A DNA stretch of 64,000 bases. It comes from Rhodovulum sp. 12E13 (GTDB lineage: Bacteria > Pseudomonadota > Alphaproteobacteria > Rhodobacterales > Rhodobacteraceae). Position numbers and translations under genes: made by a program. The stretch lies in the NCBI RefSeq assembly GCF_003340565.1, contig NZ_QPLK01000001.1, forward strand, positions 124,001 through 188,000, read 5' to 3'. Below are positions 14,577-31,190 of this stretch, in pieces. The stretch's first letter is position 1; each line of letters starts with the position of its first letter. The notes beneath the pieces were generated by a model. That model did not search any database, was not told where the DNA came from, and saw only the letters and a list, made by a program, of their open reading frames with translations.

Positions 14577-17500
14577 CGCCGCGCGAGGAACTCCTCGACC
14601 GCCTGCGGATTGCTGAAGCGCGACAGGATGTCGGTGCTGTTCTGCTTTCGGATGTCGGGCTGGGCAGTGTCGGGGATCGAGATGCCGACATGCTCGCCGA
14701 TCCGGGCCCGCGTTCGGGGGGCGGACAGGCGGGTATACTCCACGAAGAGCGGCCTCCGCCCCATCTCGCCGAAGATGTGCATCCGCTCCATCTCGATCCG
14801 CCGCTGGTACTCGAGGAAGTGCTCGAACTCGCCGGCGTCGAACGGCACCCGGAGCTGCTCGCCGGTGCGGTCGGTATGGCGCGCCCATTCGCCCGAGGCG
14901 CGCGCGATCTGCTCCGAGGAATACTGCGCCAGAAGGTTCTCGCGGCTCAGATGGATCAGCGCGGTGTCGGGATCCTCGGCGATGCGGCGGGTCACCGTCT
15001 GGTCGAGATGGGCGAAATGCTTGAACGCGACGAGCTGCAGGCCGGCGGCGCTCGCCTCTTCGCGCACCCGGTCGAGAAAGCCGGCGGGGTCGGTGTCGCG
15101 CTCGGCCAGCGCGTGGGGCGCGTCGACCGTCTCGCGGGCGAACTGGATCATCTCCTCGTGGAACAGCTCGAAATGGCAGAGCACCCCCGGCGTCCGGTTG
15201 AGCACGGCACATAGCAGGGTCGAGCCGGTGCGCGGGCTTGCGAGGATCGCCAGCATGCGCGCGCGGGTAGGGCGGAGGGTGAGCGCGGGGGCCGGCGGGG
15301 TCGACGAGGGGCGGAACGGCCCGGCCTCGGCCTGGGCGGGCGCAAGGCCCGGGAAGCGGCCCGAGGCTTCGGCGAGCGCCCAGAGCGCCTGCGTGTAGGC
15401 CGCCCCGTATGCCGCCCGGTCGTCGTGCGGCGGGGGATCGCCCGCCGCCGCCTCGGCGGTGCGCCGGGCGGCGTCGTCGCGCGCGGAGGCGTCGCGGGCG
15501 AGCCGGGCGGCGATGGCGATGTAGGCCGCGTCGTCCTCGGCCACGAGGTCGGCCAGGCCGTGGGCGCGCAGCCAGCCCGCGCCCGTCAGTTGCCGCAGCG
15601 CGCCGCCGGCCCGTGCCACGACCGGCGTGCCGACGGACAGCGCCTCGCAGACGGTCGTCGCCCCCGAGTAGGGGAAGCTGTCGAGCATGAGGTCGGCCGC
15701 GGCGACGAGGGCGCGCAGCCGCGCGGGCGGCATCGCCGGGCAGATCGTCACCCGTTCCCGCGGCAGCCCCGCGGCGGCGAGGCGCGCGGCGAAGCGCGCG
15801 GGGTCGGCCGGCATCGACCAGTTGGCGGCGAAAGGCGCGAGGACGAGCACCGCATCGGGCGCCTGCTCCAGCACCTGCGCCCAGGCGGCGAGCGCACGGT
15901 CGGTGATCTTGTGCGCCATGGCCGCCGAGATCAGCATCGTCTGCCCCTCGCCGAGCGCGAGGTCGGCGCGGAGCCGGGCCCCGTCGACGCGCCCGGGCGG
16001 CGGGAAGGCGTAGGCGCAGGGCGCCGCGCCCGGGATCTCGTGCAGCGGCTCGTGGTATTGTGCCTGCGCGTCGTCGGGCTCGGTCGCCGGGCAGGTGAGG
16101 GCCGCGTCGAACGAGGAGAGGCCGCTCGTCGTCGGGCAGACCGCCGTGTGCCAGACCTGAAGCGGCGCGAGGCGGTGGGCGTAGATCGCGGTCACCGGCT
16201 CGAAATCGCGGGCATAGGCCCCGGCCACGAAGATATCGAGCCCGAGCGCCCGGATCGCCGCGACGGCCTCGACCGTCGAAAGCCCGGCGAGGCACAGCGT
16301 GCGCGCGAAGACATCGGGCGCCGGGTCTCCCTCGTCGGACATGCGGATCAGCACCGGCTCGAACCGGGCGCTGTCGAGCCCGTCATACATGCCGCGCAGG
16401 GCCCAGCCCTCGGGCGTCGGCGTCACGTCGCGCACGAGCACGCCGAGGCGCAGGCGGTCGAGCCCTTCGCGGATCGTCGGCGGCGCGGTCAGGTCGGCGC
16501 CGGCATCGGCCAGCACCCGCTCGATGGCGCGGGACTGCAGACGCGCGAGCGCCGTGATGTCGTCCGCGCCGAAGATCATTCGCGTGGCGCGGAGCTGGCG
16601 GATCGTCGCGGCGGCGAGCGCATGGCGCCGCCCGAGCGTCGGCCCCTCCTCGAGCGCGGCGAGGGCGCTCGCGAGCAGCCGGCCGAGGTAGACGCGCCAT
16701 GCGCCATGGTCGGCTTCCGTCTCGAGGTCGGGCGCCGCGCCGAGCCAGCCGCCGATCGCCTCGGGGCTGGCGAGAAACGGCACCGGCAGTCGCGCGAGAT
16801 CGCCGCCGAACGGGTGCCGCCACGCGGGGATCAGCAGCAGCCCCGCGAGCGCATGGGCGAGGCGGCCACGGTCGGTCTCGGCGCCGGACAGGCCGTCGAG
16901 CGCGGCGCATTCCTCGTCCGTCGCGGGCATGCCGCGCGTCGCCTGCGCGAGGTCGACCAGCCGGCGGGCCTCGTCCTCGCTGCCGAGCAGGAGCAGCGGC
17001 AGCGCCACGTCGGAGCGGGCGACCAGGGAGACGAGCGCGGCGCGGCAGGCGGCAAGCTCGCCCGTCAGGTGGGGCGCGTCGGGATCGGCCAGAAGCGCGC
17101 CGGCACGGTCGAGCGCGCGCCGGAAGTCCGGGGCGCGCGTCGCGGGTTGCGCCGCCGGCCGGGCGGGGGGGGCGAGCCGCCCGCCGATCTCGATCTCGGT
17201 CAGTTCGACGGGGGCGAACTCCACCGCTTCGCCCGCGATCAGCACCGAGTGCAGCACGAGGTCGAGACGCCCGTTGGCGGGCGCCGCCCCGACCGGAACC
17301 GCGAAATCGCCGGGCCCGAGCAGGTCGGCCTGGGCCAGCATCGTCTCGCCGTGGCTGACGCCGAGGACGAGCGCGTGCCCCTCGGGCGGCGGAAAGAGCG
17401 GCGCCACGCGCAGCGTGACCGTCAGATCCTCCGCCTCGGGGTCGACGCCGAGCGACAGCGTCGCCTCTGCGGCGGCGGTCTGGGGGCCTGTGGTGCCCCC

Positions 17501-19210
17501 GGTGAACCAGCCCGCGCCGAAGGCATGGGCCGCGAGCGGATGCGCGAGGAAGGCGACGGTCTCGCCGGGAGAGACCGGGAGCCGGCCGGGATCGGGGCCG
17601 AGCGGGCGGAGGGCGACCGCGGCGAGAACGAGCGATGCGGCGTCCTCTCCGTCGTCGGGCTCGAAGCGGAGCGTCACCCGCGTCTCGACCGCCTCGCGCA
17701 GCAGCAGGGTGGCGGCGATCCGGGCGGCGCTGCCGGTGCGGCCGTGAAAGGCGGGGGCACCGTCGGCCTCGATCGTCAGCCGGCCCGCCGGGACGGGCGT
17801 GGCAAGGTCGAGGACGAGGCGTGCGGGGCCGGGCCGCGGGGCCGACAGGTGAAGGCAGCCGCGCTCGCCCGCGAGGGCCGCGCCCCCTCCCGGCGCGGGG
17901 CGCCACGCCCCTGCCTCCAGCCCGGCGCCCAGCGCCGCGAAGGCCGGCTCGGGCTCCGGGCGCAGGAGCGGGGCGTGCCGCTGCGTGCGACCGGTGCCCA
18001 CCTCCACCGTTCGGAGAGCCGGCGGCGGCCCGTCGCCCCGTGCCCGCGCGACGATGTGAACGCGCCGGTCGGGGGCGAAGGGTGCGCGCGGCAGCGAGAC
18101 CGAGGCGTGCCGCTCGTGCGGGCGTAGCTCGGCGGCCTGGTGCCCGTCGGCGAAGACCTCGATGCCCGCGTCGCAGGCGGGCTCCAGCTCCAGCTCGACC
18201 GAAAGCGGGCCGGTCGCCGGGGGCAGGCGCAGGTCGAGGGCCGTCGCCTGTCCGGTCACGCGGCACGAGGCGGCGATCTCCGGGCTGGCGGCCAGCGGGT
18301 GCGGGCGGTCGGGCGCGACGATCGGCGGCCAACGCGGGCGCAGCAGGTCGTCGAAGCGCGCGAACGGCTGCTCGCCGTGCGCGTCGCCGTGCCGCTCGAT
18401 CAGGTCGGCCCGTGTGGCGAGCGCCGCGCGCAGCCGCCCGGCCTCCGGCCCGAGCAGGGTGTCGGGGGCATCCGCCAGGCCCCGAAGCGCGCCGATCACG
18501 TCGACCCGGTTGGCAAGGCGCAGCCCCTTGTCCCAGCCACCGGCGCCGAGCCGGGCGTAGTTGTTGGCGAAGTGGATGCGGTAGCTGCCAAGCACGCGGC
18601 GCACCACGCCCGTCCGTCCGAACAGCGCCGCGGCCCGCACCAGCCAGCAATCGGCGCTGATCCGCCAGCGGGCCTCGGGCATCGGCAGCGCCGCCGCGAG
18701 AAAGGCGCGCCCGAAGACGTTGCCCGAGGTCGGCGGGAAGGGATAGCTGCCGCGCAGCAGAACTCCGGGGCGGTTGTCGGGCAGCGGGCCGTGTCCGGGG
18801 CCGAGGCTCGGGTTGACGCCGAGGCTGGCGCCGCCCGCGTCGATCATCTCGAGGTCGAAGACGAGGCTCGCCATGTCCCCCGACCAGTGCAGCAGCACAG
18901 TCTCGAGCGCGTGCGGATGCAGCAGGTCGTCGGCGTCGAGAAACAGGATCATCTCGGCGCTCGTCTCGGCGAAGCCGCGGTTGAAGGCGGCCGCCTGCCC
19001 GCCGTTCGCGCAGGCGACGGCGCGGACGCGGCCGGCGTATCGGTCGAGCACGGCGGCGGTGTCGTCGGTCGAGCCGTCGTCGATCACCACGATCTCGTCG
19101 GCCGGGCGCGTCTGCTCGAGCACGCTGTCGAGACAGGCCGAGAGGAAGTGGCCGTAATTGTAGGCCGTGACGACGACGGCGATGCGGCGGGGCGCGGCGG
19201 GATCGGTCAT
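14546..19210 (-). CDS. giant GT2 / OGT-like glycosyltransferase / sulfotransferase protein
   Basis: 1554 residues in one frame. Residues 8-250: GT2 (GT-A) domain with VVVTAYNYGHF, DDGST and the metal-binding DAD at 92-94. Residues about 300-650: beta-rich region with repeated carbohydrate-module-like patterns (LHLSAPRPGPARLVLDL and GAGWFTGGTTG), related to patterns in the neighbouring protein. Residues about 960-1260: GT-B region resembling SPINDLY/O-GlcNAc transferases (LQVWHTAVCPTTSG, then MLDSFPYSGATTVCEAL and GTPVV). Residues about 1320-1554: Stf0-like sulfotransferase with the phosphosulfate loop ILASPRTGSTLL. It probably builds and sulfates a surface glycan or glycoprotein. The start ATG overlaps the upstream gene's stop (ATGA), and a further open stretch upstream is antisense shadow. 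Confidence 0.82.
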   Translation of the reverse strand: MTDPAAPRRIAVVVTAYNYGHFLSACLDSVLEQTRPADEIVVIDDGSTDDTAAVLDRYAGRVRAVACANGGQAAAFNRGFAETSAEMILFLDADDLLHPHALETVLLHWSGDMASLVFDLEMIDAGGASLGVNPSLGPGHGPLPDNRPGVLLRGSYPFPPTSGNVFGRAFLAAALPMPEARWRISADCWLVRAAALFGRTGVVRRVLGSYRIHFANNYARLGAGGWDKGLRLANRVDVIGALRGLADAPDTLLGPEAGRLRAALATRADLIERHGDAHGEQPFARFDDLLRPRWPPIVAPDRPHPLAASPEIAASCRVTGQATALDLRLPPATGPLSVELELEPACDAGIEVFADGHQAAELRPHERHASVSLPRAPFAPDRRVHIVARARGDGPPPALRTVEVGTGRTQRHAPLLRPEPEPAFAALGAGLEAGAWRPAPGGGAALAGERGCLHLSAPRPGPARLVLDLATPVPAGRLTIEADGAPAFHGRTGSAARIAATLLLREAVETRVTLRFEPDDGEDAASLVLAAVALRPLGPDPGRLPVSPGETVAFLAHPLAAHAFGAGWFTGGTTGPQTAAAEATLSLGVDPEAEDLTVTLRVAPLFPPPEGHALVLGVSHGETMLAQADLLGPGDFAVPVGAAPANGRLDLVLHSVLIAGEAVEFAPVELTEIEIGGRLAPPARPAAQPATRAPDFRRALDRAGALLADPDAPHLTGELAACRAALVSLVARSDVALPLLLLGSEDEARRLVDLAQATRGMPATDEECAALDGLSGAETDRGRLAHALAGLLLIPAWRHPFGGDLARLPVPFLASPEAIGGWLGAAPDLETEADHGAWRVYLGRLLASALAALEEGPTLGRRHALAAATIRQLRATRMIFGADDITALARLQSRAIERVLADAGADLTAPPTIREGLDRLRLGVLVRDVTPTPEGWALRGMYDGLDSARFEPVLIRMSDEGDPAPDVFARTLCLAGLSTVEAVAAIRALGLDIFVAGAYARDFEPVTAIYAHRLAPLQVWHTAVCPTTSGLSSFDAALTCPATEPDDAQAQYHEPLHEIPGAAPCAYAFPPPGRVDGARLRADLALGEGQTMLISAAMAHKITDRALAAWAQVLEQAPDAVLVLAPFAANWSMPADPARFAARLAAAGLPRERVTICPAMPPARLRALVAAADLMLDSFPYSGATTVCEALSVGTPVVARAGGALRQLTGAGWLRAHGLADLVAEDDAAYIAIAARLARDASARDDAARRTAEAAAGDPPPHDDRAAYGAAYTQALWALAEASGRFPGLAPAQAEAGPFRPSSTPPAPALTLRPTRARMLAILASPRTGSTLLCAVLNRTPGVLCHFELFHEEMIQFARETVDAPHALAERDTDPAGFLDRVREEASAAGLQLVAFKHFAHLDQTVTRRIAEDPDTALIHLSRENLLAQYSSEQIARASGEWARHTDRTGEQLRVPFDAGEFEHFLEYQRRIEMERMHIFGEMGRRPLFVEYTRLSAPRTRARIGEHVGISIPDTAQPDIRKQNSTDILSRFSNPQAVEEFLARRYLSRWAREA

Positions 19211-22200
19211 GGCAGGCTCGCGTGACGGGAGTCGGCGGGGGCGAGCGCGATGCCGAGAAGCGCCCCGCCGAGCAGACCCCCGCCCTCGAGCCCGAGGAGT
19301 CGCGGATCGACCAGCAGCGTGGTGGCGACATCGAGGATCACGTCGGCGCCCGGGCCGGCGTCGATGTCGAGGGTGAGCGTCTCCGGCCCCTCCGCGCCGG
19401 CGCTCTGCACACGGGCGTCGCCCGCGCGCAGGTCGAGCCGCTGACCGCTGCCCGGAAGGGCGAGGACCCGGGCGACGAGGCGCAGCGGCCCGCGGCCGGG
19501 GCGGGGCAGGTGCAGCCGCGCCGCGCTGGCGCCGAGCCAGAGCCCGTCGCCCCCGGCATCGTGCCACAGGTCGGGCGCCTGTGCGCAGGCGGCGAGCGCG
19601 GCCGGGTCGAGCCGTTCGGCATGCTCGGGGCGCGGCCCCGCGGCGTGCGTGACATGGCGCGCGATGCCCGTCAGGCGCATCCCCTCGGGGAGGTCGAGCT
19701 CGAGCTGCCGGGCGGCCGCGGGGGCGACGAAGGTGGCGCAGGCCCCGCCCGCAAGACGAAGGGTCACCCGACGGTCTCCGGCCGCGATCCCGACATCGGC
19801 GATCGGGGCCGCCGCGTCGCCGCCGTCCGGCTCTGCGCGGTCGCCCGCCTCGCGGTCGATCCGCAGCACGAGGGGTGCGGCCACCGGGCCAGCCAGCTGG
19901 CCGACCACCGGGCCAGCCATCGGGCCAGCCAGCGGGCCAGGCATCGGGCCGGGCAGGGGCACCGTCAGGCGGTCCGGCGCCGCCTCGATCGCGCCGAGAT
20001 CGTCCGGCGCGACGAGACGGCCCGGCGGCAGCGGGTCGGCCGGGTCGAGGGGCAGCAGGCGCAGCGACGACAGGCGCGGGCGCGGGGCGCCGTCGGCCGC
20101 GACGAGCGTGATCTCGACCAGCCCGGAGGGCGGAACCGCGGATGCCGGCAGCGTCACGACAAGGCCGGTGCCGTGCGCGTCGAGTTCCTGCTCGGGCGCG
20201 GCGGCGCGCAGCCCGGCCATCAGCGGCAGCGGGTCGGCCACGATATGCAGCAGGTGATCCCCGTGCCCCGGCGCCGACAGATGCAGGCCGGCTCGCGGCG
20301 CGGCCATGCGCGCGCCTGCGCGGTCGGGCCAGTGCCAGCCTGCGCCGAGGCAGCGCCGGCCGGCAGGCTCGTCGGGGCGCACCGGGCGCCCCACGGGCAG
20401 AACCGGCGCCCCGGCGAAGGCGGGCAGGGCGCGCTGCGCGGCGAGCTCGGTGACGAGCGGGCGCGCGCCCTCGGGCACCAGCGTGATGCCGGCCCGCCAT
20501 GTCCGCGTCGCGGGGTCGTGCTCGAGGATGTCGCCCGCGATGCGCAGGGTCAGCGGCCCGCCGCCCCCCGGCAGCGGGTCGTGGCGCATCCCGTTGATCC
20601 AGACCGTGAGCGGCCCGCCGCCCTCGGTGGCGAGCCGCAGCGTCCAGTCCGCGCACGGGCCAGGCAACCGCAGGGCGAGCGTGGCGAAGGCGCCGTCGAG
20701 CGCGACGCCCTCGCCGGGGGCGAGGCGCCAGCCGCGGCCGAGCGGCGTCGTCCCGCGCGCCTCGCGCAGGTCGACGATCTCGCCGGGTCGGAGGATCGGC
20801 CATGTCGCCGGCCCGCCGAAGCGCGCCGGATCGCTCTCCGCAAGGTGGCGCCGCAGCCGGCCGAGGGGCGGGCGGTCGCGCCGGGTGCCCGAAAGAGGGC
20901 CCGACAGAGGGCCCGACAGGGGCGGGCGACGCAACCGCCGCGCCGGCGCGCGAAGGCCCGCGGCGAAGGCGGCGAGCCGGCGCGCGTGCGAGGCCGGCTC
21001 GGCCCGTGCCGCGAGCACGGCGGCGTCGCGCGCATGCGTCTCGCCGCCCCGGCCGGAGAGACGGCGCGCGACGTCGGCGAAGGCCTGCCGGCGCTGCTGC
21101 TCCTTCCGGTCGTGGTAGGGCGCTTCCGTCCCCATCGTGGCGAAATACGCGTTGCGCCCGTGCAGGCGATACTGGCCGAGCGTGCGGTCGAGGTGCCGCG
21201 CCTCGCCGAGAAAGGCGGCACCGAAGACGAGGTAGACGTCGGCGCTGATCCGCCATGCGCGCTCGGGAATCGGCATCAGTCGCTCCAGCGTCGCCCGCGG
21301 AAAGGCGTTGCCGCTCGTCGGCATCATCCGCACGAATCCCTCGGCCAGGAGCGGCCCCCGCAGGTCGCCGGCCGCCGCGATCCGCGACATCGGGAAGAGG
21401 CCGGTCGGGTGCCCGCCCGCATCGATGGTCTCGAGCCCGAAGGAGAGCCGGGCCACACCGTCGAGCGGCTGCGTGGCGAGCGTCTCGACCGCCTCGGGCG
21501 CGAGCCGGTCGTCGGCGTCGAGGAACACGATCAGATCGCCCGTCGCCGCGGCGAAGCCCGCGTTCAGCGCCGAGCCCTGGCCGCCGTTCTGCTTCAGCAC
21601 GGAGCGGATGCCGGAAAACCGGGCGATCACGTCGCGGGAGGCGTCGGTCGAGCCGTCGTCGACCACGATCACCTCGTGGGCGGGCCGCGTCTGGTCGAGC
21701 GCCGAGGCGATGGCGGCGCCGAGATACGCGGCGTAATCATGGTTGTTGACGACGATGCTGACGCGCGAGGGGCGATGGGTGACAGCCGTCGCCGCATCGG
21801 CCACGAGCTCGGCGAGAAGGGCGGGGTCGGGCGGCACCGCGTTGAAGAGGGCGTCGACGGCCAGCCAGCGCCGCACCGTGTCGCGCGGGGCACCGGGCGC
21901 CCGAGGCGCGAGCCTGCGCAGGAGCGCGGCGGCGTCCACCGCGTCGGGCAGAGCGGACAGTGCGGCATGGATCGTCACCGCGTCGAGGCCGGGGCCGAAG
22001 CGGGCGAACAGCCGCTCTAGTCGGCCGCATGTCGCGCCGGTCTGCTCGGTGACGCGAAGCTGCTCGGCGCACCACGACGGCTCGACGCGGATCCGCGGAA
22101 GCCCGGCCGGAGCCGGCCCCGTGCCGAGCGCAGCCGAGGCATGGGCGGCCGTCCCGGTCGTGGCGATGCCCTGCCGGGCGAGATGGGGCGCGAGCGCCAT

Positions 22201-22275
22201 GTCGGCGATCGGCCCGCCGATCGGGCTGGCAAGAACGAGACGTGGCGCCGTGGCCCGCCCCGGTATCGGCTGCAT
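19207..22275 (-). CDS. large GT2 glycosyltransferase with C-terminal beta modules
   Basis: 1022 residues from the ATG at 22275. Residues 1-165 are unassigned. Residues 170-420 form a GT2 domain (VSIVVNNHDYAAYL, VVDDGST, DADD with the DAD at 253-255, and a C-terminal RISADVYLVFGA that closely parallels RISADCWLVRAA in the next protein). The remaining 600 residues are beta-rich, with the same LHLSAP and GAGW patterns as its neighbour, suggesting duplication of a whole architecture. Two low-complexity Gly-Pro stretches are encoded by 12-base tandem repeats. It begins 17 bp after the small exported protein gene and is coupled by ATGA to the giant transferase. The substrate is unknown. Confidence 0.8.
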   Translation of the reverse strand: MQPIPGRATAPRLVLASPIGGPIADMALAPHLARQGIATTGTAAHASAALGTGPAPAGLPRIRVEPSWCAEQLRVTEQTGATCGRLERLFARFGPGLDAVTIHAALSALPDAVDAAALLRRLAPRAPGAPRDTVRRWLAVDALFNAVPPDPALLAELVADAATAVTHRPSRVSIVVNNHDYAAYLGAAIASALDQTRPAHEVIVVDDGSTDASRDVIARFSGIRSVLKQNGGQGSALNAGFAAATGDLIVFLDADDRLAPEAVETLATQPLDGVARLSFGLETIDAGGHPTGLFPMSRIAAAGDLRGPLLAEGFVRMMPTSGNAFPRATLERLMPIPERAWRISADVYLVFGAAFLGEARHLDRTLGQYRLHGRNAYFATMGTEAPYHDRKEQQRRQAFADVARRLSGRGGETHARDAAVLAARAEPASHARRLAAFAAGLRAPARRLRRPPLSGPLSGPLSGTRRDRPPLGRLRRHLAESDPARFGGPATWPILRPGEIVDLREARGTTPLGRGWRLAPGEGVALDGAFATLALRLPGPCADWTLRLATEGGGPLTVWINGMRHDPLPGGGGPLTLRIAGDILEHDPATRTWRAGITLVPEGARPLVTELAAQRALPAFAGAPVLPVGRPVRPDEPAGRRCLGAGWHWPDRAGARMAAPRAGLHLSAPGHGDHLLHIVADPLPLMAGLRAAAPEQELDAHGTGLVVTLPASAVPPSGLVEITLVAADGAPRPRLSSLRLLPLDPADPLPPGRLVAPDDLGAIEAAPDRLTVPLPGPMPGPLAGPMAGPVVGQLAGPVAAPLVLRIDREAGDRAEPDGGDAAAPIADVGIAAGDRRVTLRLAGGACATFVAPAAARQLELDLPEGMRLTGIARHVTHAAGPRPEHAERLDPAALAACAQAPDLWHDAGGDGLWLGASAARLHLPRPGRGPLRLVARVLALPGSGQRLDLRAGDARVQSAGAEGPETLTLDIDAGPGADVILDVATTLLVDPRLLGLEGGGLLGGALLGIALAPADSRHASLP
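19885..19956. repeat. 12-base tandem repeat inside the GT2 gene
   Basis: Six consecutive 12-base units start at 19885, 19897, 19909, 19921, 19933 and 19945. Four are close to CGGGCCAGCCAT; the second and sixth are diverged. In the reverse-strand gene they encode four-residue steps such as MPGP, LAGP and MAGP between two beta modules. Because the unit is a multiple of three, copy-number change would lengthen the linker without a frameshift. Confidence 0.85.
20894..20917. repeat. second short 12-base tandem repeat inside the GT2 gene
   Basis: Two exact copies of AGAGGGCCCGAC with degenerate partial copies on both sides. It encodes repeated GPLS in the reverse-strand glycosyltransferase and forms another flexible linker, immediately after the GT2 domain region. 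Confidence 0.7.
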
Positions 22276-22292
22276 CGCGGGGCCGCGCGCCG

Positions 22293-22748
22293 TCAGTAGC
22301 CCGAGGTGCCCGGTCTGTCCTCGGGGTTGAGGATGCTCTGCGCGAGCGCCTGCGTCGACGAGCTTTCCACGGCCCGCCCGCCGCCGCGCGCCACGTTCTG
22401 CGGCAGCTGCGCGCGGATCGCCGGGTCGAGCCCGGCGATGGCCGAGGCCGGGATGGCCGCGACCGTCGAGGCCGGCAGCGTGTTGACGACGAAGGGAATG
22501 CAGTTGCTCGCGGGGAAATTGGTCATCAGGGAGACGACCGACGACAGCGACCGTGTGCGGATCGCCTGCCGGCAGGCCTGCCCCTCGGCCTGGCTCGCCA
22601 CCGTCAGGACAGTCCCGCCCGATACCGTGACGGTTGGAGTGCCGGCCGTCGGAACCGGCGCGCATCCCACCTGAAGCGCGATTGCGCCGGCCGAGGTGCC
22701 GATGGCCAGCGACCGGGTCAGGCGGGACAGGGACTTCTTGTCGGCCAT
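22293..22748 (-). CDS. small exported protein, function unknown
   Basis: 151 residues from the ATG at 22748, with GAGAGAA upstream as a weak ribosome site. The N-terminus (KKSLSRLTRSLAIG then a hydrophobic run to a Cys near residue 29) is a signal peptide; the residue three before the Cys is Gln, which fits a lipobox poorly. The mature part has two further Cys, a proline-containing middle (PASNCIPFV) and a Ser/Thr-rich C-terminus. It is the first gene of the operon with the two large transferases, so it could be their acceptor or an envelope partner; that is inference. I do not recognise the family. Confidence 0.6.
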   Translation of the reverse strand: MADKKSLSRLTRSLAIGTSAGAIALQVGCAPVPTAGTPTVTVSGGTVLTVASQAEGQACRQAIRTRSLSSVVSLMTNFPASNCIPFVVNTLPASTVAAIPASAIAGLDPAIRAQLPQNVARGGGRAVESSSTQALAQSILNPEDRPGTSGY

Positions 22749-22809: not shown

Positions 22810-22876
22810 AGTGCAACCATTTGTTGTCGTCTTTTCTGGCGCCGGTTCATCCGGCGTCGCCTGGAGAAAGCCCTCG

Positions 22877-25774
22877 GTGACCTCGCAAGGCGCAGATCGC
22901 GAACGACCGCTGCAGCGATGCCGGGGATGGGGGGCGCTTGCCGTCGGCACCGTGCTGCTGATCGGGGTGCTTGCCGGCCCGGCGGCTGCCGCGCGGGTCG
23001 CCCTGGTGATCGGCAACGGCGCCTACAGCGACGTCACGCCGCTGCCCAATCCGCGCAACGATGCGACGGCGCTCGGCGCCACGCTCGCGGGGATCGGCTT
23101 TGATGTCGACGTGGTGATCGACGGCGATCTCGCAACGATGAGGGCCGCGATCGACGAGTTCACCGAGCGGGCGGACGGCGCGGAAGTCGCACTCGTCTTC
23201 TATGCCGGTCACGGCCTGCAGCTCGACGGCACGAATTACCTGCTGCCGACCGACATCGCGCTGGCCACCCGGGCCGACCTGCACGGCGGGGCGCTGACAA
23301 TGGACGAGATGTTCGACGCCTTCGCCGAGGCGGCGCCGGAGACGGCCATTCTCATCCTCGACGCCTGCCGCGACAATCCCTTTGCCGCGGCGATCGGGGC
23401 GGGGCAGGGCCTCGCCAGCGGCACGCCCGGCTCGGGCAACGTCAACCGCCCCAGCGCTGCAGGCACCGTGATCGCCTTTTCCGCGGCGCCGGGCGCGGTG
23501 GCCTCTGACGGGGCCACCGGCAACAGCCCCTACACCACGGCGCTCCTGCAATGGATCGACCGCCCCGGGATCGAACTCGGCACGATGTTCCGCCGGGTGC
23601 GCCGCACGGTGCTCGATCTGACCAACGAGCAGCAGGTGCCCTGGGTCGAGGAGGCGCTCGTCCAGGATGTCTATCTCAACCCCGCACCGCCGCCGCCGCC
23701 GCGGTCGTCCGCCGAGCGGATGGAGGTCGCGCTGCTGACCAACGTGCTGGGCTTCGCCGACGAGGTCGAGCGCGACGCGGCCCAGACCTTCTACGATCGC
23801 TACGTCGTCGATGCCTCGCTCACGGCTGACGGCCCGCTCGACGCCGACGAAACCCAGGTGCGCGCCGGCCTGATCTGGCTGTCGATCCGCGAGAGCGACG
23901 ACCCCGCGGTATTCCGCGCCTATCTGGACGAGTTCCCCGGCGTCGGCTTCGCGCGGCTCGCCGAGGAGCGCCTTGCCGAGCTCGCCGCCGCGCCGCCCGC
24001 GCCCGAGACGCTGGCATGGCTCGACGACCTGCCCCCCGTGCCGCCGCGGCCTGCGGTCGTGCCGGAGGCAGCCCCGTCGCCGGCGGCAGAGCCGCCTGGC
24101 GCGATCGTGCAGCTGCCGCCCGAGCGCCCCGGCGCGCCGCCGATCCCGTCCGACCCCGGTGCCCCGCTGACCGGCGAAGGCGGGGCTGCGCGCGAGCCGC
24201 AGCGCCCGCCCGGGCTGGCCCCGGAGAGTGCCGTGGAGCGGCCGCCTCGGATCTCCGTGCAGCACGCCCCGCCATCGCCCTCGCAGCTCGAAAGCGAACT
24301 TGCGCTCGAGCCGTCCGAGGACTTGGCCGTGCAGGTGCTGCTGGCGGAGGCCGGGTATTATCGCGGCCCGATCGACGGCGATTTCGGCCCCGGCACCCGT
24401 GGCGGCATCGAGCGTCTGCAGGCCGAGAGCGGCCTGCCTGCGAGCGGCTTTCTCACCGTGGAAACCCTTCGCCAGCTCGTCGCCCGCGCCGCCCCCGATG
24501 TGCTGGGCCGCGCGGCGGCAGAGCGCTACCATCCCGACGTGCACGGCGTGGCCGCCATCGCGGTGGGCGGCCCCGGTGCCGAGCCCGAGGTGGTGCGCGT
24601 CGAGGCGATCAACCGTAACGACGAAGTGCATGCCTACTGGCGCGAGATCGCCGACGCCTTCGAGGCCGACAACCCCGGCACGCTGATCGAGATCACCCAC
24701 CGCCCAGGCGTGCGTTACCGTGTCGAGCTCATGTCGATTCTCGGCGCCGAGACCCCGCCCGACCTGATCTATACCTGGTCGGGCGGGCATCTCGACGCCC
24801 TGCGCGAGGCAGGCTTCGCCCGCGACCTGACTGACGAGATGGCCGAGGGGTGGGCCTTCGAGTTCAAGCCGGGCGCGCTGCAGACCTACACCCACGAGGG
24901 CCGTGTCTACGGGGTGCCGATGCACCTGTCGCTGATCTCGCTCTACGCGAACCGCCCGGTGCTGGAGCGCGCAGGCATGACGGTCGAGGGCCTGCGCACA
25001 TGGCAGGGCTTCCTTCGTGCGGTCGAGACGCTGCAGCGGCAGGGGATCCAGCCGATCACCGTGGGCGGCGGCGACATCTGGCTCTACAACCTCTATTTCG
25101 GCCAGCTCGCCCAGCGCCTCGGCGGGCGGTCGGCCATCGTCGGGGCGCTGGCGGGCGAGGGCGAGGGCTTTGACGGCCCCGCGTTCCGCGCGGCCGGCGA
25201 CGCCTTTGCCCGCCTCGTCGCGCTCGAACCCTTCCAGCCGGGCCACGGCGCGATGGACGACGGCCGCGCGACCCAGATGGTCGCCGAAGGCGAGGCGGCG
25301 ATGATCCTCACCGGCAGCTGGCGGCTGCAGCGGATGATGTGGAACTGGACGGGCGGACCCGACGCGATGGACGCCGAACTCGTGCAGCTTCCCTTCCCCA
25401 CGATCGGCGACCGGCCGCAGCAGAGCGTCACCTACGGTGGAGCGGACGGCTTCGCCGTGTCGCCCGAGGCGCCCGACGTCGCCCTCGACTTCCTCCGCCG
25501 GCTCACCGCCATCGACGTGCAGGAGCGGATGGTCCGGATCGCCTCCGACATCCCCGCCGCCTCGGGCGCCGACCTCGCGGTCGAGGCGGGCTTTCTGCAG
25601 GAGGCGGCCGAACGTGTGCTGGTGAGCACCTACCACCAGCTCTACCTCGACCAGGAGCTGGGGCCGGGGGCGGGCGACGTCCTCAACGACGGCATCGTCG
25701 ACGTGGTGGCCGGGGCGTCCGACATGAACAAGGTGTTGCGCGATCTCGACGCGACGCTGCAGGCGGCCGACTGA
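22877..25774 (+). CDS. caspase - peptidoglycan-binding - ABC solute-binding fusion protein
   Basis: 965 residues from the GTG at 22877, which has GGAGAAAG at good spacing and begins a short basic segment followed by a signal sequence; another GTG at 22811 lacks a ribosome site. Residues about 38-270 form a caspase-like (C14) domain with both catalytic residues: His112 in FYAGHG and Cys164 in LDACRDNPF. A Pro-rich linker follows, then a PG_binding_1 domain at about 483-538 (AGYYRGPIDGDFGPGTRGGI). Residues about 572-965 are a complete family-1 ABC solute-binding domain (YWREIADAFEADNPG, DLIYTWSGG, GVPMHLSL, EAAMILTGSW). The frame is uninterrupted, so this is a genuine fusion. The predicted role is a cell-wall-attached periplasmic protease gated by sugar or ligand binding; this is inference. 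Confidence 0.85.
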   Translation: MTSQGADRERPLQRCRGWGALAVGTVLLIGVLAGPAAAARVALVIGNGAYSDVTPLPNPRNDATALGATLAGIGFDVDVVIDGDLATMRAAIDEFTERADGAEVALVFYAGHGLQLDGTNYLLPTDIALATRADLHGGALTMDEMFDAFAEAAPETAILILDACRDNPFAAAIGAGQGLASGTPGSGNVNRPSAAGTVIAFSAAPGAVASDGATGNSPYTTALLQWIDRPGIELGTMFRRVRRTVLDLTNEQQVPWVEEALVQDVYLNPAPPPPPRSSAERMEVALLTNVLGFADEVERDAAQTFYDRYVVDASLTADGPLDADETQVRAGLIWLSIRESDDPAVFRAYLDEFPGVGFARLAEERLAELAAAPPAPETLAWLDDLPPVPPRPAVVPEAAPSPAAEPPGAIVQLPPERPGAPPIPSDPGAPLTGEGGAAREPQRPPGLAPESAVERPPRISVQHAPPSPSQLESELALEPSEDLAVQVLLAEAGYYRGPIDGDFGPGTRGGIERLQAESGLPASGFLTVETLRQLVARAAPDVLGRAAAERYHPDVHGVAAIAVGGPGAEPEVVRVEAINRNDEVHAYWREIADAFEADNPGTLIEITHRPGVRYRVELMSILGAETPPDLIYTWSGGHLDALREAGFARDLTDEMAEGWAFEFKPGALQTYTHEGRVYGVPMHLSLISLYANRPVLERAGMTVEGLRTWQGFLRAVETLQRQGIQPITVGGGDIWLYNLYFGQLAQRLGGRSAIVGALAGEGEGFDGPAFRAAGDAFARLVALEPFQPGHGAMDDGRATQMVAEGEAAMILTGSWRLQRMMWNWTGGPDAMDAELVQLPFPTIGDRPQQSVTYGGADGFAVSPEAPDVALDFLRRLTAIDVQERMVRIASDIPAASGADLAVEAGFLQEAAERVLVSTYHQLYLDQELGPGAGDVLNDGIVDVVAGASDMNKVLRDLDATLQAAD

Positions 25775-26132
25775 GGCCCCCTCGGGGCATCTGGCCCTGA
25801 AGGGGCCGGTGCCGGAGGAAGCGGCCCCATGCGGTCGGGTCCGTTTCTGGGGGCACTGCGGGGCGAGGCGCGCGCCCTGCGACGCCGGTGGCCGGCACAG
25901 GCCGGCAAGCCCCGCGCCGCTCCGCACGCTGCACCGGCGAGCCTCCGGGCCGCGATCGTCGGCTCACTGCCCGCGCTTGCGCGCCGCTCCGCAGACCGGC
26001 CGGATTGCTCGGTCGCGGCCGAGGACCTGTGCGTTCACTCGGTCACCTCCGTGCCACCTCTGTCGCCGCGTGACAGCGCACATGGGGGGCAATAGGGTCA
26101 CCCCTGAACGGAAAAGACCGAGAGGCGGCAGG
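25775..26132. other. intergenic region, no supported gene
   Basis: 358 bp between the caspase fusion and cytosine deaminase. Just after the stop are two small hairpins (GCCCC at 25776-25780 with GGGGC at 25784-25788; GGCCC at 25793-25797 with GGGCC at 25803-25807) that could end transcription, though no T-run follows. The short open frames here have no ribosome site or protein-like composition. The last 30 bases carry the ribosome site (AGGCGGCAGG) of the deaminase. I see no convincing sigma-70 promoter. Confidence 0.4.
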
Positions 26133-27437
26133 ATGATCGACTTACTGATCCGGGGCGCGAGCCTGCCCGATGGCAGGCAGGGGCAGGACATCGCCATCCG
26201 GGGCGGGCGCATCGTCGACGTCGCGCCCGGGATCGACGCCGAAGCGGGGCGCGTGCTCGACGCGGGCGGCCATCTCGCCTCGCCACCCTTCGTCGATGCG
26301 CATTTCCACATGGATGCCACCCTGTCGCTCGGCCTGCCGCGGATGAACGTGTCGGGCACGCTGCTGGAGGGCATCGCGCTCTGGGGCGAGCTGCGCCCGA
26401 CGCTGACGCGCGAGGCGGTGGTCGACCGAGCGTTGCGCTACTGCGACCTCGCGGTGTCGAAGGGGCTGATGGCGGTGCGCAGCCATGTCGACGTCTCCGA
26501 CCCCGCCCTCGTCACGGTCGAGGCGTTGCTCGAGGTGCGCGAGCGCGTGGCGCCGTATCTCGACCTGCAGCTCGTGGCCTTTCCGCAGGACGGGTACTTC
26601 CGCCACCCCGACGCGGCGAAGGCGCTGGAGCGGGCGCTCGACATGGGCGTCGACGTGGTGGGCGGCATCCCGCATTTCGAGCGCACGCTGGAGGCCGGGC
26701 GCGCCTCGGTCGAGGCGCTGTGCCGGATCGCGGCCGAGCGGGGCCTGCGCGTCGACATGCATTGCGACGAGACCGACGACCCCCTCTCGCGCCATGTCGA
26801 GACGCTGGCCGAGCAGACGCTGCGCTTCGGCCTCGAGGGCCGGGTTGCCGGCTCGCACCTGACCTCGATGCACTCGATGGACAACTACTTCGTGTCCAAG
26901 CTCATTCCGCTGATGGCCGAGGCGCGGCTCGCGGCGATCCCCAACCCCTTGATCAACATCATGATCCAGGGCCGCCACGACACCTACCCCAAACGGCGCG
27001 GGCTGACCCGCATACCCGAGCTGATCGAGGCCGGCATCGACGTGGCGCTGGGGCAGGATTGCGTGATGGACCCGTGGTATTCGATGGGTACGGGCGACCT
27101 GCTCGATGTGGCGCACATGGCGGTGCACGCCACGCAGATGGGCTCGCAGGACGACAAGCGCACGTTGTTCGACGCGGTGACGACGGTGCCCGCGCGCATC
27201 CTCGGGCTCGAGGGCTACGGCCTCGCGCCCGGCTGCCATGCCGACCTCGTGATCCTGCAGGCGACCGACCCCGCCGAGGCGATCCGCCTGCGCCCCGCGC
27301 GCCTCGCGGTGATCCGGCGCGGCAGGGTGGTGGCCGAGACGGCGCCCGAGATCCCGCGCCTGTCGCTCGAGGGCCGCCCCGGCACGGTCGACCCGGCCGC
27401 CTATGCGCCCCGCCACGCCCGCCAGGGCGGCGCCTAA
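26133..27437 (+). CDS. codA: cytosine deaminase-type amidohydrolase
   Basis: 434 residues, the normal length of CodA. Metal and catalytic motifs of the amidohydrolase fold are all present: the HxH pair in FVDAHFHMD, DMHCDETDDP with the conserved His and the Glu/Asp pair, SHLTSMHSMD, and the metal Asp in LGQDCVMDPW. CodA hydrolyses cytosine to uracil and ammonia in the cytoplasm. The following BMP-type ABC importer is a family known for purine nucleoside and similar substrates, which supports a nucleobase salvage or degradation role; related deaminases acting on other pyrimidines or triazines cannot be excluded. The start is supported by the ribosome site just upstream. Confidence 0.83.
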   Translation: MIDLLIRGASLPDGRQGQDIAIRGGRIVDVAPGIDAEAGRVLDAGGHLASPPFVDAHFHMDATLSLGLPRMNVSGTLLEGIALWGELRPTLTREAVVDRALRYCDLAVSKGLMAVRSHVDVSDPALVTVEALLEVRERVAPYLDLQLVAFPQDGYFRHPDAAKALERALDMGVDVVGGIPHFERTLEAGRASVEALCRIAAERGLRVDMHCDETDDPLSRHVETLAEQTLRFGLEGRVAGSHLTSMHSMDNYFVSKLIPLMAEARLAAIPNPLINIMIQGRHDTYPKRRGLTRIPELIEAGIDVALGQDCVMDPWYSMGTGDLLDVAHMAVHATQMGSQDDKRTLFDAVTTVPARILGLEGYGLAPGCHADLVILQATDPAEAIRLRPARLAVIRRGRVVAETAPEIPRLSLEGRPGTVDPAAYAPRHARQGGA

Positions 27438-27567
27438 TTTCGAGGCACATCCCCTATCCGGCACAGCAATTGGGCAGCCGCCCCTTGACTCCGCCGGCCC
27501 GTGGCGAAGTGTGGCGCCGTCGCGCGGGGCGGTCCCGCGCCCGAAGTCCAACGAGGGGGACCTGCCC

Positions 27568-28560
27568 ATGATCCGCACCCGAATGAACCGTCGCCGTCTG
27601 CTCGGCGCCGGCGCCGCGCTGACCGCCTCGGCCCTCGCCGCACCCGCGTTGCTGCGCGCGCAAGGCGCGGCCGTTAAGGTCGCGGGCATCCACGCCTCGC
27701 CGGTCGAGAACGCCTGGAACTCCGTCCTGCACGCGGCGATGGTGGCGGCCGATGCCGACGGGGCGATCGAATACACCTTCTCCGAGGGCGTGTCGGGCAC
27801 CGACTATCCGCGCGCCATGCGCGAGTTCGCCGAGGCGGGCAACGTGCTCATCGTGGGCGAATCCTACGCCGTGGAGCGCGAGGCGCGGCAGGTCGCGGCC
27901 GACTATCCGGACACCGCGTTCCTGATGGGCTCGTCCGGCGAGGCGGCAGGCGACAATTTCGGCGTCTTCGGCACCTGGAACTGGGAGGCGGCGTATCTCG
28001 CCGGCATGCTGGCGGGGCGGATGACGCAGTCGGGCATCGTGGGCTCGGTCGGTGCCATCCCGATCCCCGAGGTCAACATGCTGATCAACGGCTTTGCCGA
28101 CGGCGTGGCGCGCACCAACCCAGAGGCGCAGCACCTGGTCAGCTTCATCGGCACCTTCTTCGACCCGCCCAAGGCGCGCGAGGCCGGGCTGGCGCAGATC
28201 GACGCCGGAGCAGACATCCTGTTCGGCGAGCGGATCGGCACGGCCGATGCGGCGCAGGAGCGCGGCATCCCCGCCATCGGCTCGCTGATCGACTATACTC
28301 CCCGCTACCCCGAGACGGTCTTCGCCAACGCGCTGTGGAACTTCCGCCCGCTGATGGAGGCGGCGCTGGCCGATGCGCTGGCGGGCGAGCCCACGGGCAA
28401 GAACTATACGCCGCTCAGCCTGATGAAGGACGGCGGCAACGACATCTCCTACGTCGAGACGGTGCCGCCCGCCGAGGCGGTGGCCGAGATGGAGGAGGTG
28501 CGCGCCGCCATCAAGGCGGGTGCGTTCGAGGTGCCCCGCAACTTCGAAGAGCCCGCCTGA
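27568..28560 (+). CDS. BMP-family ABC transporter substrate-binding protein
   Basis: 330 residues. The N-terminus has a twin-arginine-like signal (MNRRRLLGAGAAL; the alternative ATG is at 27583) and an AQG cleavage region. The mature protein matches the BMP/PnrA type: KVAGIHASPVENAWN, ALYxx-like MGSSG and FGTWNWEAAYLAGMLAG, GSVGAIPIPEVN, and DYTPRYPE. These periplasmic proteins deliver purine nucleosides or related compounds to their ABC permeases. The gene follows codA by 130 bp and is separated from the ATPase gene by a strong hairpin, giving the usual pattern of more binding protein than membrane parts. Confidence 0.87.
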   Translation: MIRTRMNRRRLLGAGAALTASALAAPALLRAQGAAVKVAGIHASPVENAWNSVLHAAMVAADADGAIEYTFSEGVSGTDYPRAMREFAEAGNVLIVGESYAVEREARQVAADYPDTAFLMGSSGEAAGDNFGVFGTWNWEAAYLAGMLAGRMTQSGIVGSVGAIPIPEVNMLINGFADGVARTNPEAQHLVSFIGTFFDPPKAREAGLAQIDAGADILFGERIGTADAAQERGIPAIGSLIDYTPRYPETVFANALWNFRPLMEAALADALAGEPTGKNYTPLSLMKDGGNDISYVETVPPAEAVAEMEEVRAAIKAGAFEVPRNFEEPA

Positions 28561-28574
28561 TGCGACACCGGCAG

Positions 28575-28600
28575 GCCCGCCCCCGGCTGACGGGGCGGGC
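28575..28600 (+). terminator. hairpin between binding-protein and ATPase genes
   Basis: A perfect nine-base-pair GC stem (28575-28583 with 28592-28600) with an eight-base loop ends exactly at the base before the ATPase ATG. There is no T-run, so it is more likely an mRNA-stabilising or attenuating element than a full terminator. Its 3' arm (GGGGCGGGC) also contains the only purine-rich stretch that could serve as ribosome site for the ATPase, so the structure would hide it. Confidence 0.6.
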
Positions 28601-30148
28601 ATGACGCGGGTTCTGGAGCTTTCGGGGATCACCAAGCGCTTCGGCGCCACGCTGGCCAACGACGCCGTCTCGCTCCACCTGGAGCGGGGCGAGATCGTTG
28701 CGCTTCTGGGCGAGAACGGCGCGGGCAAGACCACCCTCATGTCGATCCTTTTCGGCCATTACACGGCCGACGCGGGCACTGTCCGGGTCGAGGGCGAGGT
28801 GTTGCCGCCGGGCCACCCGCGCGCCGCGATCCGTGCTGGCGTGGGCATGGTGCACCAGCATTTCGCGCTGGCCGCCAACCTGACCGTGCTCGACAACGTC
28901 ATGACGGGCACCGAGCCGCTGTGGCGGCTGCGCTCCGACCGGTCGGGGGCTCGGGCGCGGCTGGCGGCGCTGGCGGAGCGGTTCGGCCTCAGGGTCGATC
29001 CCGACGCGCGGGTGTCCGACCTGTCGGTGGGCGAGCGGCAGCGCGTCGAGATCCTCAAGGCGCTCTACAACGACGCGAGCATCCTCATCCTCGACGAGCC
29101 GACGGCGGTGCTGACCACGCAGGAGGCCGAGCGCCTGTTTGCCACGCTGCGCGACATGGCCGCCAAGGGGCTGTCGCTGATCTTCATCAGTCACAAGCTG
29201 CACGAGGTGATGTCGGCCTCCGACCGGGTGGTGGTGCTGCGCGGCGGCCGCGTGGTGGCCGAGCGTGCCACGCGAGAGACAAGCCGCGAGGAACTGGCCG
29301 AGCTGATGGTGGGCCGCGCCGTCGACCGGCCCGTGCGCCCGCCGGCGACGCCCGGCCCCGTGCTGCTGCAGGCGCGCGACGTCGCGGTGGCGGGGAAGGG
29401 CGGCGCCTCGCTGAAGGGGGTCGACTTCGCCCTGCGCGCGGGCGAGACGCTGGGGATCATCGGCGTCTCGGGCAACGGGCAGACGACGCTGGCGGAAGTG
29501 GTGTCGGGCGTGCTGGCCCCCGCCGCGGGCACGCTGACCGTCAGGGGTGCGCCGCTTGCTTCGGGCGTGCGGGCCGCCATCGCCGCCGGCATCGGACGCA
29601 TTCCCGAGGATCGCCACGCCGAGGGCGTGCTCGGCGACATGACGACGTGGGAGAACGTGGTGCTCGAGCGCATCTGGTCGCCCGAGTTCTCGCGGCGCGG
29701 GGTCGTCCGCCGCGGGGCGGCGCGCGCGGCTGCCGCCCGCATCCTGGGCGACTACGACGTGCGCGGCGCACAGGTCGACGGGCGGGTGCGCCTTCTGTCG
29801 GGCGGCAACATGCAGAAGCTGATCCTCGGCCGCGTGCTCGAGGCTGCGCCCGACATCCTCGTGGCCGCCCAGCCCAGCCGCGGGCTCGACGAGGGGGCCA
29901 TCGCCGGGGTGCATCGCCGGCTGATCGAGGCGCGGGCGCGAGGCGCCGGCGTGCTGCTGATCTCGGAGGATCTCGACGAGGTGATCGCGCTGGCCGACCG
30001 CATCCGCGCCATCGTGGGCGGGCGGCTGTCGCCCGCCATTCCCGCAGAGCGTGCCGACGCTCGCCTGCTGGGCCTGATGATGGCCGGCGACTGGCGCGCG
30101 GCAGAAGGCATCGCGGCCGGGGCCGAGGGGGAAGCGCATGCGCTTTGA
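28601..30148 (+). CDS. BMP-type ABC importer ATPase (two nucleotide-binding domains)
   Basis: 515 residues with two fused ATPase domains. The first has Walker A GENGAGKTT, signature LSVGERQRV and Walker B LILDEP. The second is degenerate in the manner of ribose/nucleoside importers: GVSGNGQTT, signature LSGGNMQKL and AAQPSRGLD instead of a normal Walker B. This double ATPase (MglA/NupO type) powers the two downstream permeases at the inner membrane. It overlaps the first permease gene by 11 bp. Confidence 0.9.
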   Translation: MTRVLELSGITKRFGATLANDAVSLHLERGEIVALLGENGAGKTTLMSILFGHYTADAGTVRVEGEVLPPGHPRAAIRAGVGMVHQHFALAANLTVLDNVMTGTEPLWRLRSDRSGARARLAALAERFGLRVDPDARVSDLSVGERQRVEILKALYNDASILILDEPTAVLTTQEAERLFATLRDMAAKGLSLIFISHKLHEVMSASDRVVVLRGGRVVAERATRETSREELAELMVGRAVDRPVRPPATPGPVLLQARDVAVAGKGGASLKGVDFALRAGETLGIIGVSGNGQTTLAEVVSGVLAPAAGTLTVRGAPLASGVRAAIAAGIGRIPEDRHAEGVLGDMTTWENVVLERIWSPEFSRRGVVRRGAARAAAARILGDYDVRGAQVDGRVRLLSGGNMQKLILGRVLEAAPDILVAAQPSRGLDEGAIAGVHRRLIEARARGAGVLLISEDLDEVIALADRIRAIVGGRLSPAIPAERADARLLGLMMAGDWRAAEGIAAGAEGEAHAL

Positions 30149-31190
30149 GCGCCGTGAGCGGCCCTCGGCGGCGCTGACCCTGCTGGCGCCGCTCGGCGCC
30201 ATCGGCGCGGCGCTTGCACTGGCCGGCGCGCTGATCGCCACGGCCGGGGCCAACGTTGCCGAGGCGTTCGGCCTGATCCTGCAGGGTGCCCTCGGCTCGC
30301 GTCTGGGGATCACCGAGACGCTGACCCGCGCGACGCCGCTCATCCTGACCGGCCTCGCCGCCGCCGTCGCCTTTCGTGCGCGGCTGTGGAATATCGGCGG
30401 CGAGGGACAGTTCTACATGGGAGCGCTGGCCGTCTCGGCCTTCGGCCTCGTGCCGGGGCTCGCGGCGGCGCCGGCCCCCGTGGCGGTGCTGGCCTGCCTC
30501 GTCGCGGGCGCGCTTGCCGGCATGGCGCTGCTGCTGGTCCCCGTGACGCTCAAGCTGCGGTTCGGCACCGACGAGGTGGTGACGACGCTGCTGCTCAATT
30601 TCGTGGCGATCCTCTTCGTGTCGATGATGATCGAGGGTGCGCTGCGCGACCCGCTGGCCTTCGGCTGGCCGCAATCGGTGCCGGTGCCCGACGTCGCGCT
30701 CCTGCCGCAACTCGTCGAGCGGTCGCGCCTTCATGCGGGCCTTCTGATCGCGCTGGCGATGGCGGTCGCGGTGTGGTGGCTGCAGGAGCGCACCGTCTTC
30801 GGCATGCGCGCCCGCGCCGCGGGGCTGAACGCACGCGCGGCCGCCTTCGCCGGGGTGCCGCTGGGGCGCACGCTGGTGCTGGTGGGGTGCCTGTCGGGGG
30901 GGCTGGCGGGCCTCGCCGGCGCGATCGAGGTGATGGGGGTGAAGGGCTATGTCACCACCGACCTGTCGCCCAACTACGGCTATTCCGGCATCGTCATCGC
31001 CATGCTCGCCGCGCTCCACCCCATCGGCGTGATCGGGGCGGCGCTCTTCTCGGCGGTGATCTTCGTGGGCGCGGATTCGATGAGCCGGGCGCTCGGCGTG
31101 CCCTCCTACATCGCCGACGTCACGGTGGCGCTGTCGCTGCTGACCATGCTGGTCGCGCTGTTCCTCGTGCAATTCCGGGTGCGGCGGTGA
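30138..31190 (+). CDS. BMP-type ABC importer permease 1
   Basis: 350 residues with about eight to ten hydrophobic helices. It has the BPD_transp_2 (branched-chain/nucleoside) permease pattern, including NIGGEGQFYMGAL and the ATPase-contact loop GLNARAAAFAGVPLGRT. This is the larger subunit of a heterodimeric channel, paired with the gene that follows by a GTGA overlap. Confidence 0.88.
   Translation: MRFERRERPSAALTLLAPLGAIGAALALAGALIATAGANVAEAFGLILQGALGSRLGITETLTRATPLILTGLAAAVAFRARLWNIGGEGQFYMGALAVSAFGLVPGLAAAPAPVAVLACLVAGALAGMALLLVPVTLKLRFGTDEVVTTLLLNFVAILFVSMMIEGALRDPLAFGWPQSVPVPDVALLPQLVERSRLHAGLLIALAMAVAVWWLQERTVFGMRARAAGLNARAAAFAGVPLGRTLVLVGCLSGGLAGLAGAIEVMGVKGYVTTDLSPNYGYSGIVIAMLAALHPIGVIGAALFSAVIFVGADSMSRALGVPSYIADVTVALSLLTMLVALFLVQFRVRR

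Follow-up and report, generated by a model that had tools for sequence, protein, structure and literature searches.

Domain organization of the fusion

The window, by which we mean the whole stretch of 64,000 nucleotides analyzed here from a contig of Rhodovulum sp. 12E13, carries on its forward strand (22877 to 25774) a gene whose translation runs for 965 residues to one terminal stop codon, with no internal stop. The start used here is a GTG; the farthest in-frame start, a GTG at 22811, would give 987 amino acids, and the exact start codon could be either. A scan for promoters and terminators returned no match. The first-pass annotation had read a His112/Cys164 caspase, a PG_binding_1 domain, and a full family 1 solute-binding domain (SBP) in this single uninterrupted frame, and both the stop-free run of 965 codons and the Pfam matches agree with that description. 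All three Pfam domains (Peptidase_C14, PG_binding_1, and SBP_bac_1) exceed their curated cutoffs and lie far beyond chance.

The chain begins with a putative signal peptide (residues 1 to 39; 22877 to 22993, +), in which a hydrophobic core, the strongest hydrophobic stretch of the 965 residues, is followed by GPAAAA ahead of the first caspase strand; the site was placed by eye. Next come the caspase domain (Peptidase_C14, residues 40 to 266; 22994 to 23674, +; E = 5.6e-37, profile positions 2 to 233 of 233), a helical segment without a Pfam family that was delimited by AlphaFold secondary structure and dN/dS (residues 278 to 382; 23708 to 24022, +), and a proline- and alanine-rich linker that is less constrained by dN/dS and has low pLDDT (residues 383 to 480; 24023 to 24316, +). 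PG_binding_1 occupies residues 484 to 534 (24326 to 24478, +; E = 1.6e-10). The C-terminal part (residues 572 to 960; 24590 to 25756, +) was assigned by Pfam, solved-structure matches, and dN/dS as a complete family 1 SBP of the xylo-oligosaccharide type; within it, Pfam SBP_bac_1 spans residues 586 to 877 (E = 4.3e-25, profile positions 8 to 301 of 307).

The motifs GHG (residues 111 to 113) and DACR (residues 162 to 165) confirm the numbering of the catalytic His112 and Cys164, whose codons lie at 23210 to 23212 and 23366 to 23368 (+), as does the caspase alignment. All 66 aligned caspases, the two fused ones included, have G111, H112, D162, C164, and R165. In the AlphaFold model, pLDDT is 84 to 98 per ten-residue block over residues 41 to 270, except for blocks 161 to 190, and Foldseek matched the caspase-domain fold to MALT1, a top match, and to animal caspases. 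The whole Pfam profile, the invariant dyad, and the fold match together give the p20 fold with a His-Cys dyad that is expected of Peptidase_C14, and the domain is an intact caspase of the orthocaspase type and probably an active protease.

We judge a role in anti-phage defense improbable: the only PADLOC match was weak (PDLC02987, 37.6 bits), and the signal peptide disfavors a cytosolic defense role for the fusion. As a separate observation, 27 IMG/VR contigs (L129 to L155) code for caspases resembling that of the fusion, so that genes of this kind are present on contigs with a viral classification. Rhodovulum sp. 12E13 also encodes a second caspase (G000:C62, L104) with Sel1 repeats and a C-terminal PG_binding_1 domain, and a protein of like architecture occurs in the sister genome described below (L107).

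Ortholog and selection

A scan of genome contigs, which relies on exact short peptides and detects close relatives only, returned seven loci, one of them a full-length relative that is 89% identical to the fusion (Rhodobacteraceae bacterium HLUCCA09, LJNT01000196.1). HLUCCA09, the sister genome, is metagenome assembled; its protein has the same domain architecture, and the alignment of the two fused proteins is gap free over its whole length, counted from the start codon used in the window. The fusion is thus present in both of the two genomes examined from the genus.

Selection was measured as NG86 dN/dS between the fusion and its HLUCCA09 ortholog, with bootstrap intervals. Given ratios of 0.133 for the caspase (0.072 to 0.234) and 0.161 for the SBP (0.114 to 0.242), purifying selection maintains both ends of the protein. 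The helical segment (residues 271 to 380) has a ratio of 0.118 and PG_binding_1 one of 0.195, and five downstream neighbor genes range from 0.063 to 0.136. The ratio is 0.336 (0.159 to 0.647) in the proline-rich linker, taken as residues 381 to 482, and 0.345, with a very wide interval, in the 35 residues that precede the SBP. We rejected neutral decay of the SBP on the basis of its ratio, despite the strong divergence of this domain from stand-alone relatives.

The first-pass annotation had raised the possibility that the frame results from an assembly or sequencing error that merged two genes. The Rhodovulum sp. 12E13 genome is a draft of 127 contigs and the other copy sits in a metagenome-assembled genome, both of which leave some room for such an artifact. 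However, the same frame recurs gap free at 89% identity in LJNT01000196.1, purifying selection extends across both domains, and the SBP part has no signal peptide, so we regard an artifact as extremely unlikely.

The relaxed linker bears on an alternative hypothesis, in which the protein is a precursor: the linker would be cut by the caspase or by another protease and the SBP freed, with the fusion serving for export, dosage, or one-off release. Leaving the signal peptide aside, the linker ratio ranks among the top two point estimates, and several arginine residues lie within the linker; orthocaspases are described as cleaving after positively charged residues (PMC6426788). Arginine is, however, frequent anyway in a GC-rich genome, and even after release, the SBP would lack an adjacently encoded CUT1 permease. 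We consider processing improbable.

Distribution

In a whole-protein search of 101 genomes, in most of which the best eight first-look candidates were scored, a full-length match occurred only in the window genome and in HLUCCA09. Searches with the SBP alone covered 198 genomes of the family, 190 of the class, and 200 of the phylum, each sample including the window genome, and considered matches above cutoff strength only (1e-25, 1e-40, and 1e-35, respectively). They gave five matches in three other genomes of the family (frames of 281 to 489 amino acids, the 281-residue one at a contig edge), three in three other genomes of the class (416 to 466 amino acids), and four in four other genomes of the phylum (427 to 464 amino acids). 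These are ordinary SBP lengths, and no other fused SBP was found among the strong matches in the three samples. Four weaker SBP matches of the 101-genome search, in frames of 700 to 1136 amino acids (G000:C54, G021:C10, G035:C1, and G041:C1), were rejected as caspase fusions because Pfam finds the SBP alone in them.

Among 72,556 plasmid records, 643 matched the query and none covered 80% of it; when plasmids were searched with the caspase alone, no binding-protein annotation stood at the match among the 60 of 267 records listed, many of which were unannotated there. A search for SBP relatives on viral contigs gave 50 pattern matches and 0 relatives. In the literature, judged from titles and the openings of abstracts, we found no description of a caspase-SBP fusion. 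Within the sensitivity of these searches, the architecture looks confined to one genus.

The solute-binding domain

By sequence, the C-terminal domain has the complete SBP_bac_1 fold of a CUT1 binding protein. Among solved structures, 8xba is the best relative of the domain (2.1e-61 over 375 residues), followed by 3zkk and 3vxb. Passages of PMC12125979 identify the binding protein of the 8xba transporter as XylC of Vibrio sp. EA2, which binds beta-1,3-xylo-oligosaccharides; the molecule is named XylA in the PDB, and the chain numbering of our alignment fits the XylC residues given in that paper. The same source reports that W91A, W191A, W271A, and D382A each abolished sugar binding by XylC (PMC12125979). 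These four essential residues correspond to W634, W735, W815, and D925 of the fusion (within 24590 to 25756, +), a sugar platform kept in both fused proteins.

Across all 16 ligand contacts of XylC, seven are identical in the fused SBP (I35, Y89, W91, W191, W271, D382, and Q383) and nine are changed (T37, N68, K72, M139, H194, F195, F275, N314, and F380), the polar changes T37R, N68G, K72R, H194N, and N314D among them. Departure from the positions conserved among stand-alone relatives averages 0.32 in the fused SBP versus 0.09 to 0.26 in nine stand-alone SBPs, which suggests a changed constraint on the domain after fusion. The sugar platform thus seems to be retained with a specificity that has probably changed, and, given both the altered contacts and the departure from family-conserved positions, the ligand may differ or be lost. 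AlphaFold gave a pLDDT below 50 over most of the SBP and a pTM of 0.43, in a model for which only the ortholog informed this domain.

The domain begins at residue 572 and has neither a signal peptide nor a lipobox of its own. By eye, five stand-alone relatives start with an apparent signal peptide, whereas no second signal-peptide-like stretch precedes the SBP of the fusion, where hydrophobicity is only weak. That weakly hydrophobic segment, residues 555 to 573 (24539 to 24595), lies just before the SBP and could be a relic of a lost SBP signal peptide.

Companion domains of other caspases

We scanned 84 other alphaproteobacterial caspase frames for companion domains (Pfam E values up to 0.001). 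Sixty-four of them comprise the 60 best-scoring caspase places of the 101-genome search, the two fused ones excepted, and four loci of the contig scan; they remained from 71 frames after removal of six duplicate or partial copies and a 130-residue fragment (L011), and L010 and 17 weaker caspase places were left out. These 64 and the two fused caspases make up the residue alignment of 66. The other 20 frames came from genomes new to the sample, out of 37 places found. Start codons of the comparison frames were picked by script, and four frames (L054, L056, L162, and L173) are cut by contig ends.

The most frequent companions were Sel1 (20 frames), PG_binding_1 (19), FGE-sulfatase (10), and SH3_3 (9), and the rarer ones were Lectin_C, F5_F8_type_C, and NADase_transloc (2 each) and WSC, YARHG, and LprI (1 each); the F5_F8_type_C and NADase_transloc pairs are perhaps in the same proteins. 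TPR repeats and minor families were also present. CHAT matched in 7 of the 84 frames and, being a caspase-related fold, probably marks the caspase domain itself. At the same threshold, no SBP or periplasmic-binding family of any Pfam kind occurred in the 84. Of 671 prokaryotic caspase homologs surveyed in 2012, 11 were reported to have a peptidoglycan-binding domain, and the words "solute," "SBP," and "binding protein" do not appear in the main text of that survey (PMC3501461).

The architecture had been flagged as unfamiliar. That holds for the SBP part, found in 0 of 84 caspases, but not for the pairing with PG_binding_1, which is common (19 of 84): by domain content, caspase plus PG_binding_1 is known and ordinary, and what is novel is the SBP.

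The company kept by these caspases suggests a second reading, in which the SBP is an extra glycan-binding C-terminal domain that, together with PG_binding_1, places the caspase near a glycan-bearing substrate or surface without gating it. Related caspases in the scan bear lectin, F5/8, SH3, or wall-binding domains, and in the fusion, a long linker and PG_binding_1 lie between the two ends, as such targeting would allow. On the other hand, SBPs with this fold differ from surface lectins in that they enclose short soluble ligands in a cleft, and the essential cleft residues are kept. We take pure targeting to be rather unlikely, although it deserves serious weight.

Gene neighborhood

Downstream of the fusion lie, in order, genes for a cytosine deaminase, a Bmp-type binding protein (27568 to 28560), an ATPase, and two BPD_transp_2 permeases (30138 to 31190 and 31187 to 32128). 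As a unit (26130 to 32128, +), the deaminase and transporter genes resemble a nucleobase or nucleoside uptake operon, which is also present in the sister genome. The transporter begins 1.8 kb after the fusion, is of a different class from SBP_bac_1, and has its own binding protein. The earlier statement that no permease is nearby therefore has to be narrowed: two permeases do lie downstream, but no CUT1 permease adjoins the fusion, the neighboring transporter being of the Bmp/BPD_transp_2 type. We rejected this transporter as the cognate partner of the SBP on the grounds of its type, its own binding protein, and its position beside the cytosine deaminase (NF005748, 773 bits).

The possibility that the SBP remains in the service of a sugar ABC transporter whose genes lie elsewhere, with the caspase merely carried along, draws on the surroundings of its relatives: stand-alone SBP relatives adjoin sugar ABC permeases in five of the five annotated loci viewed (a sixth record is unannotated), and a GH43 or beta-xylosidase gene is found at three of these five. 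In the window genome, no SBP_bac_1 gene lies near one of the MalF-like permease matches (C106), and 7 of 20 SBP_bac_1 genes, the fusion included, have no MalF-like match nearby, so that a missing neighbor is weak evidence and not diagnostic alone. The other 15 of 16 MalF-like matches, however, are each no more than 2 kb from another SBP_bac_1 gene, which leaves few such permeases without a partner. Wall anchoring would presumably hinder delivery to a permease, and many family-conserved positions are lost in the fused SBP. Continued service in transport is, in our judgment, very unlikely.

Flanking genes are the same in the window and in HLUCCA09 apart from one stretch: the fusion and the deaminase gene are separated by 1,152 bases in the sister genome versus 358 in the window. 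In this gap, the sister genome has an epimerase-like gene (Pfam Epimerase/GDP_Man_Dehyd) split over two frames (L006:10965-12292, -). Upstream of the fusion, a divergent gene (22293 to 22748, -) encodes a lipoprotein-like product of 151 amino acids with an ALQVGC motif recognized by eye. It matches no Pfam or NCBIfam family, is 93% identical in the sister genome, and in a search of 61 genomes turned up in only two, which both belong to this genus; as a conjecture, its product is a possible partner of the fusion. Farther upstream (14546 to 22665, -), very long frames with GT2, GT41, and Stf0 sulfotransferase domains are probably surface-glycan genes.

Discussion

A single conserved frame joins a caspase with its catalytic dyad to an SBP that has the sugar-stacking residues and no signal peptide of its own, and purifying selection acts on both domains. 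A maintained dyad, a maintained sugar cleft, export, and wall binding are most simply read as the marks of an envelope protease whose action depends on a sugar. We postulate, tentatively and short of even confidence, that the fusion carries out ligand-controlled periplasmic proteolysis; this is our leading reading, and the targeting described above is its close rival.

In the proposed mechanism, an exported orthocaspase would be held at the cell wall through PG_binding_1, and its C terminus would have gained, as a sensor, an SBP of the xylo-oligosaccharide type that once served an ABC transporter. Binding of a periplasmic oligosaccharide would close the two lobes of the SBP, and closure would alter how active the caspase is, how it oligomerizes, or how substrates reach it; the caspase might then cut a periplasmic or envelope protein, after a basic residue by analogy with other orthocaspases. 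The full version, a wall-anchored single chain whose Venus-flytrap domain reads a xylo-oligosaccharide-like periplasmic ligand and switches the caspase on or off, seems to us possible but somewhat doubtful. We infer that the protein is exported, that it binds the wall and a sugar, that it acts as a protease, and, above all, that its two ends are coupled. SBP-like domains are used in bacteria as sensors fused to other outputs, as in the Venus-flytrap sensor kinases (PMC4352136). Against gating, about 300 residues, the proline-rich linker and PG_binding_1 included, separate caspase and SBP, which would rather suggest independent modules, and only two genomes, both of one genus, are known to carry the architecture.

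What is new here is a transporter-derived SBP on an exported orthocaspase; exported orthocaspases with a variable C-terminal part were already known. Little is known about the triggers and substrates of exported bacterial caspases, and the caspases that we scanned, which bear mainly wall-binding domains or repeats, give little hint of a trigger. A ligand domain of a known sugar class built into the chain offers a defined set of oligosaccharides as candidate effectors of one protein. If gating is true, the fusion would provide a direct chemical handle on the regulation of a bacterial caspase and would widen the outputs of the Venus-flytrap fold by a new one, and, if the controlling ligand is a sugar, polysaccharide availability would act on envelope proteolysis directly, with neither a membrane receptor nor transcription in between. 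This interest is tempered by the single-genus distribution.

Comparison with known systems

The closest solved caspase by sequence is the MALT1 paracaspase (3v4o, 1.1e-8), which is also among the top fold matches of the caspase domain (3v4o, TM score of 0.79 by target length). MALT1, an animal protein of the cytosol, carries death and Ig domains and is not known to have a wall-binding domain or an SBP domain, both of which belong to the fusion. Alphaproteobacterial exported caspases with PG_binding_1 share with the fusion a signal-peptide-like start directly before the RVALVIGN strand (consensus), the His/Cys dyad, and a C-terminal wall-binding domain, and the fusion differs from exported caspases of this class by its SBP, seen in 0 of the 84 at Pfam E values up to 0.001.

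The closest CUT1 xylo-oligosaccharide binders are XylC/8xba, the XOS-binding protein 3zkk, and the sugar-binding lipoprotein 3vxb, and the fused SBP matches 8xba over its full length. In comparison with XylC, W91, W191, W271, D382, and Q383 are kept, whereas N68, K72, H194, F195, and N314 are replaced. Unlike these binders, the fused SBP stands behind a protease, without its own signal peptide and without an adjoining CUT1 permease.

With Venus-flytrap sensor kinases such as BvgS (PMC4352136), we claim no homology, and the fusion has no kinase domain by Pfam. The likeness is one of analogy, in that an SBP-type domain would control a fused output; in the fusion, that output would be a periplasmic protease working in the same compartment as its sensor, with no transmembrane signaling.
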